Source of the DNA: Planctomycetota bacterium
GTDB lineage: Bacteria > Planctomycetota > Phycisphaerae > Phycisphaerales > UBA1924
Assembly (NCBI GenBank): GCA_018242605.1
Contig: JAFEBP010000003.1
Location: 62,001 to 126,000 of the forward strand
Length of the DNA: 64,000 bases
Reading direction: 5' to 3'
A program made the translations under genes and the position numbers. Under the pieces are notes generated by a model that saw nothing but the letters and a program-made list of their open reading frames with translations, made no database searches and was not told the origin of the DNA. How positions within the stretch are numbered: the first letter of the stretch is position 1; every line of letters begins with the position of its first letter. Below are positions 16,765 to 43,756 of this stretch, piece after piece.

Positions 16765-18393
16765 TCAGTCGCCGCCGACGCCGGCCTCTTCCTCGCCGAT
16801 CTCGCCGGCCTGAAGGTCGCCGACGTGGTGGGTCTCGGGCTTGACTTCCACGAGGCGCTTCTCGCCGCTGCCGGCCTTGGCGCTGCGTTCGTGCACGGCG
16901 GCCTGGCGGCCGTCCTCGGTGATCCGGTAGACGACGCCGATGGTGGTCTCGGGCTCGCCCAGGACCAGGCGGTTGACCAGTTCCACGCCCTGCATGAGCG
17001 TGTGGTCGGTGTTGGCGACCTCGTACTTCCACATGCCGAAGCGGCCGCGGCTGTAGATGCCGCGGTCTTCGAGCCACGGGATGACGCGGCTCAGGATGTC
17101 GTCGCGGTCGACGCTGGGCGTGGGGTACGAGTAGTCGGCGTAGTAGTGCCAGGTGCTGACGATGTCGTTGCGTTCGCCGGGCTCGAGCAGGCCGGCGTTC
17201 TCCAGACCGGTGATCGTCTCTTCGATGATGCGGGCGGCGTCGACAGGCTTGCGGGGGCTGCAGCTGGTTTCGCAGAGCAGGGAGTAGAAGGACGCATCAC
17301 CCTTGGTGTTGTCGGCGGGGGTCATGAAAGGCGAGTAGTTGGAGAGGTACGTCACGCGGTAGAACGGGCAGTTCTCCTCGGGGAAGTACATCCAGCTCTT
17401 GGTGCTGGGGCAGCGGCGCCTGATGCCGATGCCCACCATGTGGCCGCCGCTGTGCAGCAGTTTGGAAGACTCCTCACGCACGTGCGCGGGCACGCCGCCG
17501 GTAAGCATCTTATTGCACAGGATGTCCAGGGGCGTGGTCGAGACAAGCATGTCGTACTTGGTGTGCGTGCCGTCGGCGAAGTGCACGGTCCGGGCGTCGA
17601 CATCAATCGAGACGCACTTCTTGTTCAGGCGGATGTGGCTGCCGGGGGTCTCGCGGCCGTCCTGCGTGAGCCCCAGCACGGGGCCGAAGCGGCGGTAGAA
17701 CTCGCCGGTGCCGCCCTTCCTGGGGAACTTAAAGCGGTTGTTGGGGCCCCAGCCGTAATCGTCCTTGCCCAGGATCAGGTTCTTGAGGGCCCGCTCGTAG
17801 TCGATGACGGCGACGCGCTCGCCGATCCAGTGCTTGTTCATCATCTCGGGCGGGTAGGCCCAGACCTTGAAGTTGTACGGACGCATGAAGTGCTTGGCGA
17901 GGCCCTCGCCGAAGACGGCGTCGATGAACTCGCCGAAGTTGCGGGCGTCGTGGTGGCTCTTGATCTCGCCGCGGCCGGTCTGGGCGCGGATCAGACCCTG
18001 GATGCACTCGTGGGCCATCTCCGGGGGCAGGTAGCGGATGTTGTTCTGGAACGGGTACGGCACCCAGCGGTTGGCGATGCGGACCCAGCTCTCACGGTCG
18101 TTGAGCGTGAAATCCTCGCCCATGAGCTCGTCAAAGACGCGGTCGTAGTACGAGTAGTGGCTGAACATCACGTGGCCGCCGATGTCCCACGTGAAGCCGA
18201 CCGGGTCGGTGAAGGAGTGGGACAGCCCGCCCACGAACCCCTGGGCCTCAAAGACCTCGAAGTTGGTGTACCCCAGCTCCTTGAGGCGGTAGGCGGCCCC
18301 CAGCCCGGTGGGGCCGGCGCCGATGATGACGATGCGGGGTTGTGCGCCGGGAGACACCTTCTGTCGCCCGTTGGCGGCGTGTTGATCGGTCAT
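16765..18393 (-). CDS. glf: UDP-galactopyranose mutase-like flavoprotein of the eukaryotic class
   Basis: A 542-residue FAD enzyme. UDP-galactopyranose mutase converts UDP-galactopyranose to UDP-galactofuranose for surface glycans. The dinucleotide motif is GAGPTG (25-30). The segments GGHVMFSH (72-79), WVPYPFQNNI (110-119), MRPYNFKVWA, YFPEENCPFYR and YSRGRFGMWKYEV follow, in order, the conserved segments of fungal and trypanosomatid mutases as I know them, including the histidine loop and the late flavin-contact stretch. Bacterial Glf proteins are shorter (about 370-390 residues) and lack most of these. The C-terminus carries a charged extension of about 50 residues. The ATG at 18393 follows AGGACTTCAC. 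Its upstream region is the long repeat-filled stretch up to 19538. Confidence 0.82.
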   Translation of the reverse strand: MTDQHAANGRQKVSPGAQPRIVIIGAGPTGLGAAYRLKELGYTNFEVFEAQGFVGGLSHSFTDPVGFTWDIGGHVMFSHYSYYDRVFDELMGEDFTLNDRESWVRIANRWVPYPFQNNIRYLPPEMAHECIQGLIRAQTGRGEIKSHHDARNFGEFIDAVFGEGLAKHFMRPYNFKVWAYPPEMMNKHWIGERVAVIDYERALKNLILGKDDYGWGPNNRFKFPRKGGTGEFYRRFGPVLGLTQDGRETPGSHIRLNKKCVSIDVDARTVHFADGTHTKYDMLVSTTPLDILCNKMLTGGVPAHVREESSKLLHSGGHMVGIGIRRRCPSTKSWMYFPEENCPFYRVTYLSNYSPFMTPADNTKGDASFYSLLCETSCSPRKPVDAARIIEETITGLENAGLLEPGERNDIVSTWHYYADYSYPTPSVDRDDILSRVIPWLEDRGIYSRGRFGMWKYEVANTDHTLMQGVELVNRLVLGEPETTIGVVYRITEDGRQAAVHERSAKAGSGEKRLVEVKPETHHVGDLQAGEIGEEEAGVGGD

Positions 18394-19538
18394 GTGAAGT
18401 CCTGAAGGCCCCGGGTTGATGCGCTGCAGCGCCGGTTGGTTCGCGGGGGAGGCAAGTGTAGGGGATTTGGGGCCGAAAAGGGGTGCGGGGGGGCGTGCGG
18501 GGGTGGGGCGATGAACTTTTGTTGTGATGCGCGGGAGGTTGGCGGCGGGTTGGCCGCAGGTCGGCAGCGGATTGCCCGGGCGACTTGGAGAGGGGCGAAC
18601 GTGGCTCCGGGCACTTCGCGACCAGCGCCCCGGGGCGGGAGCCCGTGCATTTGAACTTTTGGTGGCGTGCTCGCGAGCGGAGGTTATTGGGACGATGGGG
18701 AAATGGGGAAATCAGGACATGGGGAAAGGGGGAAATGAAGTCGGGCGGGCAGTGCGGGCAGGTTGTGGAGGGGGAGCGGGCTGTAAGAAGTAGTTTGTGA
18801 TTCGATGAGCGGGGCCCGGGCGCGTGCGGATGAAGTTTTGGTGCGAACCAAGCCATGCAGACTCCCCCGACGGCACGCGCGATGAACTTTTGGTGGCGTA
18901 CGGGGCGGCGATGCGCCTGCCTGTGGCACGCTGGGGCCAATGCCGGGCGACCGACCGCGGTGGTGCGGATGAACTTTTGGTGGGGCGGGTTGGGAAGTAG
19001 GGTGCTTGCCGCCGCGGGCGATGAACATTTGGTGGCACGCGGGGCGGCGATGCGGCTGCCTGTGGCACGCCGGGGCCGGTGCCGGGCGATCTACCGCGGC
19101 GGGGCGGATGAAGTTTTGGTGGGGCGGGTTGGGAAGTTGGGTGCCTGCGGCCCCACGCGATGAACTTTTGGTGGCGCGCGGGGCGGGGAAGCGGCTGCCT
19201 GTGGCACGCCGGGGCCGGTGCCGGGCGATCGACCGCGGCGGGGCGGATGAACTTTTGGTGCAAGCGCGGCCAAGGAGGCCCCCGTCGCCGCGCGCGATGA
19301 ACTTTTGGTCGTGCGCATCGCTCCATCGGACTCGGTGCGCGGCGAACTGATGTTCGGATTTCAAAGAACAACGGCCGCGGGCGGTTGGGCGGGCGGCTCA
19401 AGGGTGATACGCGGGCGGCGGGGGGAGTTCCAGCGGTTTGTTCGCGAGTACACGCGATGTGCGCACGGGGGTGGGCGGTGGATGCGCACCGACAGTGGTG
19501 GAGTGAAGCCTCCTGCTCAGCGCTTTACAATGTGATTC
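18394..19538. other. Gene-free stretch carrying motif cluster 1
   Basis: No credible gene is seen in these 1145 bases. Open frames exist on both strands but are Pro/Arg-rich artefacts of composition, and the motif is read in different frames from one copy to the next. The stretch contains ten copies of a 16-nt AT-rich motif, seven of them in a regular tandem array, and a purine-rich patch at about 18697-18780 built from repeated GGGGAAA units. It lies between the divergently transcribed mutase gene (start 18393) and the MntA gene (start 19539), so it must include promoters for both. Confidence 0.8.
18510..19313. repeat. Motif cluster 1: ten copies of a 16-nt motif, partly a 139-bp tandem repeat
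   Basis: Consensus GATGAACTTTTGGTGG (plus strand). Copies begin at 18510, 18650, 18829, 18881, 18968, 19020, 19107, 19159, 19246 and 19296. From 18829 the spacing alternates 52, 87, 52, 87, 52, 87 and 50 bases, so the unit is 139 bp with two motifs; units run 18881-19019, 19020-19158 and 19159 to about 19262. The 87-base arm repeats a block reading CTGCCTGTGGCACGC and CCGGGCGA. Substitutions are few inside the motif (GAAG for GAAC, CATTT for CTTTT). On the strand of the adjacent mutase gene each copy reads CCACCAAAAGTTCATC. Confidence 0.9.
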
Positions 19539-19844
19539 ATGCTGCGGCTGCACGATATTGCCTTTGATCTTCCCCGCATCGGCGCGGCGTGCCGCCGCTT
19601 GGGCGTCGTGCGATTGTTTCTGTTCGGCTCCATCCTGACCGACCGGTTCCGCCCCGACAGCGATATCGACATGCTCGTCGAGACCGACCCGCTGCACCCG
19701 CCGGGCCTGCTCGCGTTGGGGGGCTTGCAGATGGAGCTTTCTGATATCCTCGGCAGGCACGTCCATCTGACGCTGCTGGGCGGCATTCCGCCGAACGAGC
19801 GGCCAGCGGTGCTGGCCCGCGCGAGGATGCTCGAAGCCGCCTGA
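19539..19844 (+). CDS. MntA-type nucleotidyltransferase antitoxin
   Basis: A 101-residue minimal nucleotidyltransferase. It has the complete signature GSx10DxD: Gly30-Ser31, Asp42 and Asp44 within LFLFGSILTDRFRPDSDID. In characterised MntA/HepT pairs the MntA protein transfers AMP residues to a tyrosine of the HEPN toxin and so inactivates it. The HEPN gene follows on the same strand. The start ATG at 19539 gives the family's usual length. A near-complete active site suggests a functional antitoxin. Confidence 0.87.
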   Translation: MLRLHDIAFDLPRIGAACRRLGVVRLFLFGSILTDRFRPDSDIDMLVETDPLHPPGLLALGGLQMELSDILGRHVHLTLLGGIPPNERPAVLARARMLEAA

Positions 19845-20345: not shown

Positions 20346-20816
20346 CTAGGTTCTGTCTGACGGATCATCCGGGGCCAGAATCCGCAGGTACTTTCGGATG
20401 ATGGCCAGGTTCACGAACGACACGAAGCTGGACGCCAGTTTGTCGTATCGGGTGCCCGCGCGGCGGTTCTCCTTGAGCCAGCCCACGCACCGCTCCACCC
20501 GCACCCGCTTCTTGTACACGCGGCGGTCGAGCGTCCGACGACCTTCGTAGCGCTCCTGATCGCTCCGCTGCGGGATCACCTGCTCGATCACGCGATCTTC
20601 CAGCCACGCCCGGATCGCCGGATAGCTGTAGCCCTTGTCCCCGGCGACCCGCAGCTGCCAGTCGGTCCACCGCGGCGGACGTACCCGGTGCATCAACGCG
20701 ACGAACGACCGGCTTTCGTGCTCCTGCCCCGCCGTGACGAGGGCGGCGAGGGGAACTCCGTGACCGTCAACGACCAGGTGGAGTTTGGATCCCCACCCGC
20801 CTCGCGAGCGGCCCAA
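20346..20816 (-). CDS. IS5-type transposase, OrfB part
   Basis: The 3' half of an IS5-family (IS427-like) DDE transposase. It contributes the second catalytic Asp in LHLVVDGHG and the Glu in the VERCVGWLKENRR helix, plus the conserved DKGYSYPAIR segment. It overlaps OrfA in the -1 frame, and the A7 run at 20852-20858 (read as AAAAAAAG on the minus strand) is a likely slippage site that would fuse the two frames into one protein of about 290 residues. The Met at 20816 is probably not a real start. The stop lies at the left end of the element. Confidence 0.88.
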   Translation of the reverse strand: MGRSRGGWGSKLHLVVDGHGVPLAALVTAGQEHESRSFVALMHRVRPPRWTDWQLRVAGDKGYSYPAIRAWLEDRVIEQVIPQRSDQERYEGRRTLDRRVYKKRVRVERCVGWLKENRRAGTRYDKLASSFVSFVNLAIIRKYLRILAPDDPSDRT

Positions 20817-21339
20817 TGCGTGATCTCCTTGGTCTCGGCCCGGTTCTTCGCTTTTTTTGAAGGCCCCGCCGCGGACCGCGATGCACGCACGTTGGTGCCG
20901 TCAACGCACCAGAGGTCCCAGTCGATGTACCCGTTCTTGTCCAACCGGATCCGCAGCGCCTTGAGTACGCGATCAAATGTTCCGTCCTTGCGGTATCGGT
21001 TGAAGCGGTCGTACACGCTCTGCCACTTGCCGTAGCGCTCGGGAAGATCACGCCATGGAGCCCCCGTCCTGAGCACCCAGAGGATGCCGTCGAACATCAG
21101 GCGATGGTCGTTCCACCTCCCGCCCCGCGACTGCTTGGGCAGCAACGGCCCGATCAGTTTCCACTGCGCATCGCTGAGATCGCCGCGTGCCTGTTTGCGT
21201 CCTGCCGTGCTCATGAAAGGCCTCCATGCCAGAGGCCACATCATTCCCGCCTGAGCCACGCCGCGTCGCCCCGCGCGAAACATAATCTCGCCATCAAAGC
21301 GCCGTACATGCGCCGAACGGGAGATCCGTCAGACAGGGC
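20350..21339 (-). mobile_element. IS5-family (IS427-like) insertion sequence
   Basis: About 990 bp with imperfect terminal inverted repeats: left end GTTCTGTCTGACGGATC (20350-20366), and the right end read on the minus strand GCCCTGTCTGACGGATC (21339-21323), two mismatches in 17. Both ends are flanked by CTAG (20346-20349 and 21340-21343), consistent with the TA/CTAG target duplications of the IS427 group. The exact boundary is ambiguous by one to two bases because the repeat and target overlap. It carries one frameshifted transposase gene. Confidence 0.85.
20693..21214 (-). CDS. IS5-type transposase, OrfA part
   Basis: The 5' half of the IS5-family transposase: N-terminal DUF4096-type region LSDAQWKLIGPLLP, the RTGAPWRDLPERYGKW segment and the first catalytic Asp in LWCVDGTNVRA. 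The open frame extends to 21283, but the ATG at 21214 (MSTAGRKQ) is the family-like start. After codons for PSKK the reading frame meets the A7 run at 20852-20858; without slippage translation continues in a meaningless frame to 20693, and with -1 slippage it enters OrfB. Both parts look intact, so the element may still be active. Confidence 0.88.
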   Translation of the reverse strand: MSTAGRKQARGDLSDAQWKLIGPLLPKQSRGGRWNDHRLMFDGILWVLRTGAPWRDLPERYGKWQSVYDRFNRYRKDGTFDRVLKALRIRLDKNGYIDWDLWCVDGTNVRASRSAAGPSKKAKNRAETKEITHWAAREAGGDPNSTWSLTVTEFPSPPSSRRGRSTKAGRSSR

Positions 21340-30529: not shown

Positions 30530-30645
30530 TCGTTTCTCTCCTTGCTCTTTGAAAATACGGAGCAGTCACTGTCTCTCTTGAAATGTCGGCCACCGGCGGC
30601 GCGCCGGGGTGAGACGGCCGCCGGTTCCGACCCACATGGAGCCTG

Positions 30646-38739: not shown

Positions 38740-41700
38740 TTATGGCGTATACCCGGCGGCCTTCATTGATTCTCGGACGGATTTTACTTTCGGGTGTTCC
38801 TCATCAAAGTGCTTGAGGAAGATACCCAGGGCTTTCTCAAAACTCGCGCAGGCTGCGGCACGATCGCCCTCCCGATAGCATATTGTCGCCAAGTTGGTGT
38901 ATCGAACGCCGATATCCGGGTGGTCCGGGGCGAAGTGCTTGGACTCGATCGCGATGGCCCTTTCAATACTGACCCGCGCCTCCGGTAAGGAGCCTTGGGC
39001 CAGCCGAATAAGCGCCAAATTGTTAAAGCGGATGGCGAAAGTCGGGTGGTCTGGGGCGAGGTGTTTGGAGTCGATCGCGATGGCCTTCTCAATGCTGGCC
39101 AGGGCCGCCGGTAGGTCGCCCTGGGCCCGCTGGATCATTGCCAGGTTGGAGTAGCTAGTCGCGAAAGTGGTGTGATCCTGTGCAAAGTGCTTGGACTGAA
39201 TCGCGATGGCTTTATCCATGTTGGCCCGCGCTCCCGACAAGTCGCCTTGCTCTTGCTGAATCACCGCGAGGTTGGAGCGCATGGTGGCGAGGTGAGGGTG
39301 CTCCGAATCAAGGTGCTTCTCGGCGATCGCGATCGCTTTCTCCATGCTGGCCCGCGCACCCGCCAGGTCGCCCTGATCCTGCTGAATCAGCGCGAGGTTG
39401 GAGCAGCGGGTCGCGAAGGTCGGGTGGTCCGGGGGGAAGTGCTTGGACTCGATCGCTACAGCCTTCTCCAGGTTGGCCCTCGCGCCGGGCAGATCGCCTT
39501 GGGCCCTCAAAATGGCCGCAAGGTTGGAATAGCTGGCGCCCATCTGGGGATGATCATCGCCGAAGTGCTGGCGCTCGATCTCCATCGAGAGCAACTTGTA
39601 CCGCGAAGCCTCGGCGAACTCGCCAAGTTCCCTCAGGATCATCGCTAAATTGTTGTAGCTAGTCGCAAAGGTCGGGTGATCCGGCGTGAGGTGATTGCAC
39701 TCAATCTCAATGGCCTTCTCCATGCTGGCCCGTGCCGACGACAACTCGCCCTGATCCTGCTGAATAAGAGCGAGATTGGAGTGGAGGATCGCGAGATGTG
39801 GGTGATCCGGCGGGAGGTTCGTCAAGTCGATCGCGATGGCCTTCTCAATGCTGGCCCGGGCCGCCGCCAGATCGCCCTGAGCCTTTTGGATCATCGCGAG
39901 GTTGGAGTGGCGGATCGCAAAGGTCAGATGATCCGGAGCAAAGTGCTTGGAGTCGATCGCGATAGCACTCTCCATATTGGCCCGCGCCGCCGGAAGGTCG
40001 CCCTGGGCTTGGCGGACTAAGGCGAGGTTGGATAGAAGCGCAGACATGTTGGGGTGCTCCGGCCCGAACATGGCTGCGGTCAGCGGTATGCAGGTCTCGT
40101 AGGTCCGCTGAGCTTCGGCGTATCGCCCGACTAACTTCAAATACGTTCCCAACTCGTTGGCAAGCTTGCCAGTACCCTGTGTCGGATGATCTGACGACGC
40201 CTGCGACACGAGCGCGTCGGCGTGCGCAGCGAGCATCGATAGTCGCGGCCATTTCGTGTGGTCGTCCGGATTGTCGAACTCCGATTTCAAAGACTCCACC
40301 ACTGCGTCGATCATTAGATCTCGGGTTTCGCGATCGAGCATCGACCGCACCACAGCCTGTGTCAGCGGGTGCACGCTGAGCGTTCCCGGATACTCGATGA
40401 TCGAGAGGTCCGCTAGATTACGGGCGAGCCTGCGAGCCGCGCCAATGTCCACCTTTGTAGCCTTTGCAAGCACGTCCAGCGGGACAGTCGTCGGGGCGCA
40501 GAATGACGCCAACCCTAGCAGCACCATCTCGCGCTTGCCCGCGAACTTGTCAAAGTGCAGCGATAGACACGAGCGGATGCTGTGGTAGTACCGCAGCAAA
40601 AGGGGGTCGTTCTCTCCCCACTCAGGCGGCACCGCGCCGCCATCAACGCTCTTGCCCGCCAACATCGCCGAGTAGTCCCGGGCCTCCACGTCGCGATACT
40701 TGGCGAGATAAGCGCCCGCCAGAGCGACGGCGAGTGTGTGACAATCGACCGCGCGAGCGATGGCCCGCAAATGCTCCTCCGGGTGCGAGGGCGTGCGCTC
40801 CGCCGTCTGCTTGGCGAGCAGGTCCACCGCCGCGTCCTCGCTCAACACTTCGACCTTGAACGCGCCGATCGTGGCCGCGCCCGACAGTTCCAGCCGCGTC
40901 GTCGCCAATACGCGGAAATGGCGCCCCGGCGGAAAGAGCGAGAGCCTCGCGGGCGAATCGAGGTTGTCGAGGATGACTAGGTGCCGCCCTGTGTTCCACA
41001 GGGCGCGGAGTTCGCGGGCCGCATCCTCTGGCTTGGTGTCGGGCGCGGCGGGCGTGCCCGTGGCGTACCCGAACGCGCGGATCACCGAGTCGGAAAAGCC
41101 CGCGTCCGAGGCGTCGATCCACCAGACGCCGTCGTACTCATCCGAAAAGGTCAACGCGAAAGCTCGGGCAAGTTCGGTCTTGCCGACGCCACCCGCGCCG
41201 AAGATGATGCGCGAGATCGCCAGCGAACCCTTCGCCAGTGCCTCGTGCAGCCGCGCCAAGTCCGCCTCTCGACCGGTGAAGAACCGGTTCCAACGGATGT
41301 CGGCGTCGGCGAAGTTGTTCTTGGCCTTGAGAGTTGGGCCCGTCTGCGCTGGGTTGCGCACGGCGTCGAGAATCTTGTTGAGCGTCGCTTCCGAGGCCCC
41401 GCCGAAATACTCGGCTCTCAGGTCGGCGTGCGCATTCAACAAATCCCTGAAGTCGCACCACCCATAGACCCTCACCTCGAAGAGCCCGGCGGACTTGTGT
41501 TCGCGCGTCACGTTCGCCGCCCAGGCGGTGTGGTCGTTCGCGTCGTCAGTCGTGGCGATGACGAATCGGCTGATGTGGACCTTCTTTCCGGTCTCGTCAT
41601 CAATGAGGTCCTTGGCGGCCGCTACATCCTGTTCAGCGTCCGCTCGTTTGAGCCCTTTCATCGTGTTACGCAGTTTGCACTGAACGACCACCGCTTTGCC

Positions 41701-41865
41701 GTTGGCATCGGTCGCAATAAGGTCGATGCCATGCTGCTTTTGGCCACGGCGTCTGAACTTTTGAAAAGGACCAACACCCAGCGCTCGCTCCATAGCGCGG
41801 GTGCAAATCGTTTCCCAGTCCGTTTCGTTATTCGGAGGCGGAAATTGGAACGAGCCGTGAGGCAT
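38740..41865 (-). CDS. STAND NTPase with Mrr-like nuclease and TPR sensor, candidate defence protein
   Basis: A 1041-residue protein in three parts. Residues 1-150: a PD-(D/E)xK (Mrr-like) nuclease with Asp47 in HGIDLIAT and the QxK motif (Gln61, Lys63). Residues 185-600: a STAND/NB-ARC-type ATPase with Walker A GAGGVGKT (222-229), Walker B LVILDN (295-300), the arginine sensor LATTRLE and a winged-helix-like region. Residues about 605-1025: ten tetratricopeptide repeats of 42 residues. This nuclease-STAND-repeat plan is that of Avs-type antiviral proteins that oligomerise on sensing a phage protein and then degrade DNA. The frame is open to 42180, but the ATG at 41865 (MPHGSFQF) begins the nuclease fold. 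Target ligand unknown. Divergent from the gene at 42170. Confidence 0.82.
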   Translation of the reverse strand: MPHGSFQFPPPNNETDWETICTRAMERALGVGPFQKFRRRGQKQHGIDLIATDANGKAVVVQCKLRNTMKGLKRADAEQDVAAAKDLIDDETGKKVHISRFVIATTDDANDHTAWAANVTREHKSAGLFEVRVYGWCDFRDLLNAHADLRAEYFGGASEATLNKILDAVRNPAQTGPTLKAKNNFADADIRWNRFFTGREADLARLHEALAKGSLAISRIIFGAGGVGKTELARAFALTFSDEYDGVWWIDASDAGFSDSVIRAFGYATGTPAAPDTKPEDAARELRALWNTGRHLVILDNLDSPARLSLFPPGRHFRVLATTRLELSGAATIGAFKVEVLSEDAAVDLLAKQTAERTPSHPEEHLRAIARAVDCHTLAVALAGAYLAKYRDVEARDYSAMLAGKSVDGGAVPPEWGENDPLLLRYYHSIRSCLSLHFDKFAGKREMVLLGLASFCAPTTVPLDVLAKATKVDIGAARRLARNLADLSIIEYPGTLSVHPLTQAVVRSMLDRETRDLMIDAVVESLKSEFDNPDDHTKWPRLSMLAAHADALVSQASSDHPTQGTGKLANELGTYLKLVGRYAEAQRTYETCIPLTAAMFGPEHPNMSALLSNLALVRQAQGDLPAARANMESAIAIDSKHFAPDHLTFAIRHSNLAMIQKAQGDLAAARASIEKAIAIDLTNLPPDHPHLAILHSNLALIQQDQGELSSARASMEKAIEIECNHLTPDHPTFATSYNNLAMILRELGEFAEASRYKLLSMEIERQHFGDDHPQMGASYSNLAAILRAQGDLPGARANLEKAVAIESKHFPPDHPTFATRCSNLALIQQDQGDLAGARASMEKAIAIAEKHLDSEHPHLATMRSNLAVIQQEQGDLSGARANMDKAIAIQSKHFAQDHTTFATSYSNLAMIQRAQGDLPAALASIEKAIAIDSKHLAPDHPTFAIRFNNLALIRLAQGSLPEARVSIERAIAIESKHFAPDHPDIGVRYTNLATICYREGDRAAACASFEKALGIFLKHFDEEHPKVKSVRESMKAAGYTP
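38793..40052 (-). repeat. Ten 126-bp coding repeats (TPR array) in the STAND gene
   Basis: The 3' part of the STAND gene is built from ten consecutive 126-bp units, each coding for a 42-residue tetratricopeptide repeat of the pattern HPxxA...SNLAxIxxxQGDLxxARAxxEKAIAI. Units 2, 3, 6, 7, 8 and 9 remain similar at DNA level (for example GCGATGGCCTTCTC and CAGATCGCCCTG recur), while the fourth is diverged. The coordinates are approximate and set by the His-Pro that opens each unit. Confidence 0.85.
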
Positions 41866-42775: not shown

Positions 42776-43420
42776 GAGTCCTTCGCGCGACATGGGCCGC
42801 CCTTGTGCGCATCCCCGCGGCGGGTCCAAACAAAACCGGCCACGCCTGCGTTGTTCCGGCGTAGTCATGAGCGGCCCGCCCTGATCTTTGACAACCCATC
42901 CTGATCCCCCTTCGCGGCACACGCGCCACCAAAAGTTCATTGCGCGCACGCCCACCTCCATCTTCCATTCCAATCTCCAGAATCCCTCGTACTCCCACCC
43001 GAACGCGGCTCGCCCGCCGAACGTCCGAATAACTGCCAGGGCCGCGAAGGCGCACACACCACCAAAAGTTCATCCACCCTTCCCCTCTCCCCACCGCACC
43101 CAACCCAGTGAATTCAGGCCCAAAGTGCCACTCCCACCCCGTCCCATCCGCGGCGCACCTCACACCAAAAGTTCATCGCGCCCGCGGTGTCCGGCACTCG
43201 GCATCGGTCAGCGACCGCCGGACCCCGCCGGGAAGGCCCCCACCGCACGCACTCGGCGGTTCCAACACCCTTCACCCCTCCAACGCCCCAATAACCCGCT
43301 CCAGCGCGCCGCGCGCACGCCGCCAAAAGTTCAAACGCACCCCTTCAGCGCCGCCGACCACCGCTCCCAGACCCCACCTTCCGCCCGTCATACACTTGTC
43401 CTTCTCATTCGAGCCACTCC
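42776..43420. other. Gene-free stretch carrying motif cluster 2
   Basis: No credible gene lies in these 645 bases. Open frames are Pro/Arg/Ser-rich and follow GC composition. The region contains four copies of the same 16-nt motif found 24 kb away at 18510-19313. It ends at the start of phhB. Confidence 0.75.
42925..43336. repeat. Motif cluster 2: four copies of the 16-nt motif
   Basis: Plus-strand copies read CCACCAAAAGTTCATT (from 42927), CCACCAAAAGTTCATC (43060), ACACCAAAAGTTCATC (43163) and CGCCAAAAGTTCAAAC (43321), the reverse complement of the cluster 1 consensus. Spacing (about 133, 103 and 158 bases) is irregular, unlike cluster 1. The last copy shares its flanks with the copy at 18650: both read TTTGAACTTTTGG followed by YGGCGTGC on the strand opposite to the downstream gene. 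As in cluster 1, every copy has the CCAAAAGTTCA orientation toward the next gene. Confidence 0.88.
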
Positions 43421-43756
43421 ATGACTACCGCGGCCCCCGCCAAGATGACTGATCCGCAGATCGAGGACGCCCTCAAGGGCTTGAGCGAGTGGTCGCTCGT
43501 GGGAGAGTCCATCCAGCGGACCTACCAGTTCGGCGACTTCATCGCCTCGATGAAGTTCGTCAACGATGTGGCCCAGGCGGCCGAGGCCAGCCAGCACCAC
43601 CCCGACATCCTCATCCGCTACAGCCGCGTGACGCTCACCCTCGCCACGCACGATGCCGGCGGCATCACCGAGAAGGACTTCGCCCTCGCCAAGCGCGCCG
43701 ATGAGTTCGCGGCACGGCACGAGGCCCCCAAGGCCAAGCCGTCCAAGAAGAAGTAA
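43421..43756 (+). CDS. phhB: 4a-hydroxytetrahydrobiopterin dehydratase (pterin-4a-carbinolamine dehydratase)
   Basis: A 111-residue PCD/DCoH family protein. The enzyme dehydrates 4a-hydroxytetrahydrobiopterin to recycle the pterin cofactor of aromatic amino acid hydroxylases. The signature is visible: SQHHPDILIRYSRVTLTLATHD (split around His58-His59-Pro60), with the following GGITEKDFALA helix. The length is normal. No phenylalanine hydroxylase gene is in the window, so its partner, or a role in molybdopterin or pterin repair, remains open. The Lys-rich tail is probably disordered. Confidence 0.92.
   Translation: MTTAAPAKMTDPQIEDALKGLSEWSLVGESIQRTYQFGDFIASMKFVNDVAQAAEASQHHPDILIRYSRVTLTLATHDAGGITEKDFALAKRADEFAARHEAPKAKPSKKK

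Follow-up and report, generated by a model that had tools for sequence, protein, structure and literature searches.

What is the cluster of short repeats that occupies the gene-free stretch in front of phhB in this Planctomycetota genome, and does it act on the gene that it faces? The cluster was analysed within a window of 64 kb (the whole stretch of DNA presented, 64,000 nucleotides) and across the assembly. It belongs to a family of interspersed non-coding elements of modular build, in which a fixed head is followed by 1–11 co-oriented units. This head-plus-array element is copied as a block. In the best explanation, to which we give a probability of about 40%, its head would start an untranslated transcript toward the gene that a boxA-like site may protect from Rho.

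The array and the head in front of phhB

A preliminary description had reported four copies of a 16-nt motif upstream of phhB. All four are present on the + strand, at 42926 (1 mismatch), 43059 (exact), 43162 (1 mismatch) and 43320 (3 mismatches), and only one of them is letter for letter CCACCAAAAGTTCATC. When up to 3 mismatches were allowed, the window held 16 matches against 0.18 expected, and none of 100 shuffles reached 16. The invariant core of the unit is CCAAAA(G/C)TTCA, and the unit is also written as CCAAAASTTCATC. Using a unit profile (R2), the four units were placed on the + strand at 42915–42943 (E 5.7e-5), 43049–43079 (the exact 16-mer, E 4.7e-6), 43151–43184 (E 2e-6) and 43309–43343 (E 2e-6), the last of these being gene-proximal and carrying a TTTGAAC variant on the other strand. 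The gene faced by this array is phhB (pterin-4a-carbinolamine dehydratase, 43421–43756, +; Pfam PF01329, E 3.5e-31), and in front of it the sequence TACACT (43391–43396, +) may be the −10 of its own promoter, since it resembles the TAYACTTG upstream of rpsB that is conserved in three species. A TAYACTTG promoter at a fixed distance from the last unit, as suggested by phhB and the first cluster, was rejected, TACACTTG being found just 3 times in 714 kb; no common motif was found in the sequences between last unit and gene. An accessory motif lies about 25–40 bp before a unit, as GTCCGAATAAC at 43023–43033 (+) and as CCAATAAC at 43288–43295 (+) before unit 4. In about 42 of the 180 units GTTAT is positioned at +39 to +41, and the accessory pattern GTCCNNATAAC was counted 36 times in this genome (reversed control, 0) and once in a 400 kb sample of the congener G001 (reversed control, 0).

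The other cluster of the window lies on the minus strand at 18510–19311. By profile it is an array of 10 units (18503–19316, −), formed partly by a 139-bp tandem duplication with 52/87-bp spacing. The gene that it faces (16765–18393, −) had been called a mutase; Pfam detects in it a flavin amine oxidase domain (PF01593, E 1.4e-21). Two other statements about this pair hold: both clusters have the same orientation relative to the adjacent gene, and the copies at 43321 and 18650 share a longer flank, both reading TTTGAACTTTTGG(T/C)GGCGTGC, with GTTATTGGG about 40 bp further on in both. Low-complexity GGGAAATGGGGAAA runs were seen at 18690–18740 of the window and in the array-gene gaps of five other loci (L036, L046, L048, L052, L066); they recur in spacers and beside arrays.

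On the gene-distal side of the array lies a conserved head (42797–42898, +; profile R1, 55.5 bits, E 3.6e-15), which was overlooked in the preliminary description and falls outside the span given there. Read toward the gene, the heads consist of TGTGCGCAC, CCAAACAAA(A), CGTATCACC and G(T/C/A)TCTTTGA(C/A)A(A/T)C, after which the units begin. In the phhB-upstream head, aligned with 30 others, the palindrome element is TGTGCGCA (42804–42811, +; a near-invariant column in the 31 heads) and the A-rich element of the head alignment is CCAAACAAAA (42826–42835, +). The CGTA(TCACC) element follows as GCGTAG (42859–42864, +), its GTA near-invariant in the 31 heads and its place a candidate −10-like position, and then the boxA-like GATCTTTGACA (42883–42893, +), a match to GHTCTTTGAMA. 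No recognisable −35 was found in the heads. Of the 29 heads scored, 25 have exactly 55 bp between palindrome and CGTA; the distance between boxA and CGTA varies from 17 to 52 bp. Since CAAAGA served to pick the heads that were aligned, its invariance in that alignment is by construction; its presence beyond most arrays is not. The profile of 31 heads found 32 loci at full or near-full length and several more in part, always on the strand of the units wherever units are present, and boxA is missing from several heads (partial matches L223, L063, L224, L225 and L060). The head of the first cluster lies at 19353–19474 (−; R1, 63.5 bits, E 1.1e-17), with the boxA-like GTTCTTTGAAA at 19359–19369. 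About 1 kb from this head, two overlapping ORFs (20346–21283, −) encode an IS4/5-type transposase (DUF4096, DDE_Tnp_1).

Size, polarity and copying of the family

The 13-mer CCAAAAGTTCATC occurs 97 times exactly in the whole assembly and 0 times in the reversed control. Statistics were based on 1.17 Mb, made up of all clusters of exact 13-mers with 20 kb surroundings, the clusters detected subsequently and 14 regions in which no cluster had been known. With a unit profile of consensus CGCGCAC.CCACCAAAA(G/C)TTCATC.GCAC, 244 unit matches were obtained by position weights, against 8 in reversed sequence, and 234 by covariance-model search; the 14 extra regions gave one isolated match only (L234). 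The matches form 44 arrays of 2–11 units and four single hits, with unit spacings of 37–414 bp and spacers mostly of 50–130 bp. A genome-wide search added a few further arrays that lie beyond these 1.17 Mb (contigs C13, C25 and C31, among others), and the family amounts to about 50 elements in this species.

Of 42 arrays, 36 have a gene start on the array side of the element, against a background of 0.589 in other intergenic regions of at least 200 bp (binomial p = 2.4e-4), and the other 6 point to the end of a gene. The gene calls come from our own simple coding-potential caller, so that single calls may be wrong, and at least one, L039, is possibly on the wrong strand. No bias was found for the head side (22 of 42), and tandem gene pairs gave a polarity of 15 to 3 (p = 0.0075). 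Random orientation or many copies within coding sequence had been named as what would speak against an element placed upstream of genes; besides the polarity just given, no array was of mixed strand and only 3 of the 244 unit matches fell inside called genes. Nearly all start-facing arrays end 17–384 bp from the start codon. The genes faced include rpsB, rplM, typA, uvrB, hpf, a glucokinase-like ROK gene and aldehyde dehydrogenases, as well as genes for MFS, T2SSE (PilT-like) and VgrG-like proteins. No common theme was detected by Pfam among about 30 of them, and a regulon was rejected on the same ground of functional unrelatedness.

About nine loci share 150–630 bp at 75–93% identity, always in the same orientation. 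Between L036 and L048/L069, 424–436 bp are common at 80–82%; this homology ends at the element edges and the flanking genes differ, which shows that the element moves as a block. Some other related loci share a paralogous gene too. Beside closely related arrays at L034, L048, L068 and L069 we observed paralogous secreted-looking proteins that start with ...DPSGIEFVT(V/I)GAPGNPAYAGPD, and hence some arrays spread together with a gene. Internal tandem duplications occur in at least 18 arrays. In the remaining loci spacer similarity is lost, and core and head are constant. Head and unit were absent from the three congeners and the other relatives searched, where the profiles gave just weak scattered matches, and among 397 genomes of the class two contained the exact 15-mer, this one with 65 occurrences and one other with a single occurrence. 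The earlier suggestion of a mobile short repeat upstream of genes fits these data, since homology between several unlinked loci stops at the element ends and the congeners are without the element. The companion suggestion of a regulatory or RNA-processing element stays a conjecture: the downstream genes share no function, the units give no RNA structure signal, and the rpsB array is placed upstream of that gene's conserved promoter region. A phage origin was rejected, as the unit pattern was not found in viral contigs.

A possible boxA-led transcript

The head motif G(T/C/A)TCTTTGA(C/A)A matches the rRNA boxA of relatives. The assembly contains no 16S, so the boxA reference was taken from relatives, in whose 16S leaders it reads GATCTTTGAAAAGT (congener G001), CCTCTTTGAAAAGT (G018) and GCTCTTTGAAATCT (G043 and G053); the gamma-proteobacterial boxA consensus is GYTCTTTAANA (PMC5725501). 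GHTCTTTGAMA occurs 3 times in the 64-kb window against 0.07 expected, and two of these are the two heads. The third boxA-like sequence, GCTCTTTGAAA (30544–30554, +), is intergenic and antisense to its neighbours, and carries neither units nor head. The genome encodes NusB-domain proteins. The boxA of E. coli is bound by NusB/E and prevents termination by Rho (PMC5725501), and the addition of boxA to a synthetic CRISPR array raised the transcript about 10-fold (PMC7862264). With rRNA leaders and CRISPR leaders the present arrays would share a boxA, here of putative function, upstream of a long untranslated RNA.

On the head-to-gene strand, the spacers are rich in C and poor in G. Their median (C−G)/(C+G) is +0.42, and the value lies above zero for 34 of 36 arrays; the 136 other intergenic regions have a median of 0.0 (Mann-Whitney p = 9e-15). 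Unstructured, C-rich and G-poor RNA is the classical Rho substrate. The boxA-like site and the spacer skew agree in direction, and this agreement is our main argument for transcription from head to gene.

What we observe is the sequence, order, polarity, distribution and block copying of the elements; promoter activity of the head, function of the boxA and an effect on the gene are our inference, as follows. The element is copied between loci as a block, and its arrays then grow by local tandem duplication. At the head, as a promoter-like site, an untranslated RNA would begin and extend across the array in the direction of the gene. The boxA-like site may load NusB/S10 and so keep RNA polymerase from Rho on the C-rich untranslated stretch, and the amount of read-through arriving at the gene's own promoter might depend on array length together with antitermination. 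Taken at its fullest, the model has a self-spreading array, equipped with promoter and boxA, from which long untranslated transcripts resistant to Rho run into some 50 unrelated genes; this is rather unlikely.

Several observations count against this model: the heads have no recognisable −35, their boxA lies at a variable distance from CGTA and is missing from several of them, the units give no RNA structure signal, the wobble in the unit core fits DNA better than RNA, and six arrays face the end of a gene. A further one comes from rpsB. Between the array position and the start codon, this genome and the congeners G001 and G003 have TAYACTTG...CAGGATCGA(G/A)C in common; both congeners are without the array, and G003 has a tRNA gene further upstream. 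Because the gene's own conserved promoter region lies between array and start codon, the rpsB array is not a plain 5' leader; it is an addition upstream of an old promoter region.

Should the head be transcribed, boxA-led arrays of differing length would form a natural genome-wide experiment on antitermination and Rho in Planctomycetes; if not, the repeat, being confined to one lineage, can still serve for strain typing.

Other explanations and related repeat families

The element may instead be selfish or passive, an interspersed repeat of the STAR or BOX type without function for the host gene; this is nearly as likely as the transcription model. Core and head would then reflect the needs of the spreading machinery, and the polarity an insertion preference or the tolerance of selection. 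The absence of the element from congeners and from the class-wide sample, the unrelated downstream genes and the block copying with local tandem growth all speak for it, as does STAR, which has the same layout of head, motif and spacer and a function that is unknown (PMC3532100). Against it, end-to-end comparison of three loci (phhB, L036 and L047) detected no terminal inverted repeats, no dedicated transposase was identified for the element, and core and head stayed constant while most spacers lost all similarity. The gene-start bias also sets the element apart from the repeats of the pneumococcus, whose excess lies between convergent genes (PMC3049150).

STAR of Staphylococcus aureus are intergenic direct repeats of a 14-bp motif in 1–6 copies, with locus-specific spacers and a 'start signature' ahead of them, and sit upstream of unrelated, often essential genes (PMC3532100). 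Short intergenic direct repeats, locus-specific spacers and variable copy number are found here too, and the head is the equivalent of the start signature, though its sequence is visibly not GTGGGACAGAAATGAT. Motif and phylum are different, STAR spacers measure 40–44 bp against mostly 50–130 bp here, and our element differs in a head of about 100 bp with rigid internal spacing and a boxA-like site, and in its measured polarity toward gene starts. The STAR consensus T(G/A/T)TGTTG(G/T)GGCCC(C/A) gave a single 1-mismatch match in the window, at 17737 and outside both arrays, against 3.0 expected. BOX of Streptococcus pneumoniae, intergenic and in about 100 copies, combines fixed end modules with variable middle units (PMC3049150). 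The likeness lies in a fixed end module, a variable number of repeated units and the intergenic site; BOX differs by a second end module, inverted ends, predicted stem-loops and a convergent-gene excess, whereas the present elements have a single head, ends that are not inverted, no signal of structure and a gene-start bias. Inverted ends and a stable stem-loop would also be expected of MITE-like elements. The 'boxA' of BOX is unrelated to the Nus boxA. MIRU (mycobacterial interspersed repetitive units) are intergenic tandem units of 40–100 bp, present at about 40 loci and oriented uniformly relative to the genes beside them. They are set apart by description, as mostly near-identical tandem units without a separate head. 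A narrow, open-access search returned nothing similar in the literature on Planctomycetes repeats. We regard the elements as a new family: modular, intergenic interspersed repeats with the build of STAR and an unusual head, separate from STAR and apparently undescribed. The purpose of STAR and BOX is unknown, and the new family adds two testable handles that they lack, a rigid head with boxA and a polarity toward gene starts.

We consider it unlikely that the array is a set of DNA operators, each unit binding a transcription factor or nucleoid protein that acts on a promoter between array and gene. The short distance from array end to start codon, the position of the rpsB array upstream of a native promoter and the conserved asymmetric core, with a G/C swap typical of minor-groove tolerance, would suit it. 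This G/C wobble at one core position is mixed within arrays, and so suits a double-stranded DNA reading better than an RNA reading. The units gave no RNA structure signal (mean z −0.07 in sense, −0.31 on the other strand), and no Rfam family matched in the window at gathering score. Against operators, the spacings show no helical phasing at 10.5 bp (Rayleigh p about 0.2–0.3) and the genes no common function, and boxA and strand skew are left unexplained. A CRISPR-like array or coding repeat (MNFWW peptide), suggested by repeats with spacers, a leader-like head and one frame open between some units, is hardly credible given spacings of 37–414 bp without 3-base phase (on which the peptide was rejected), degenerate repeats and flanks where CRISPR has near-identical repeats and uniform spacers, some 50 loci and no RNA structure.

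Two kinds of neighbouring genes were also observed. A small nucleotidyltransferase gene (NTP_transf_2; window 19539–19844, +) lies on the head side of the first array, and on the head side of another (L045, 2286–2684) a protein has a similar-looking start; both are possibly parts of MNT-type toxin-antitoxin systems. PADLOC 2.0.0 gave no match for the protein encoded at 38740–41865 (−), which combines an Mrr-type nuclease domain, an NB-ARC ATPase and many TPRs. This STAND-like architecture is one often seen in anti-phage defence.
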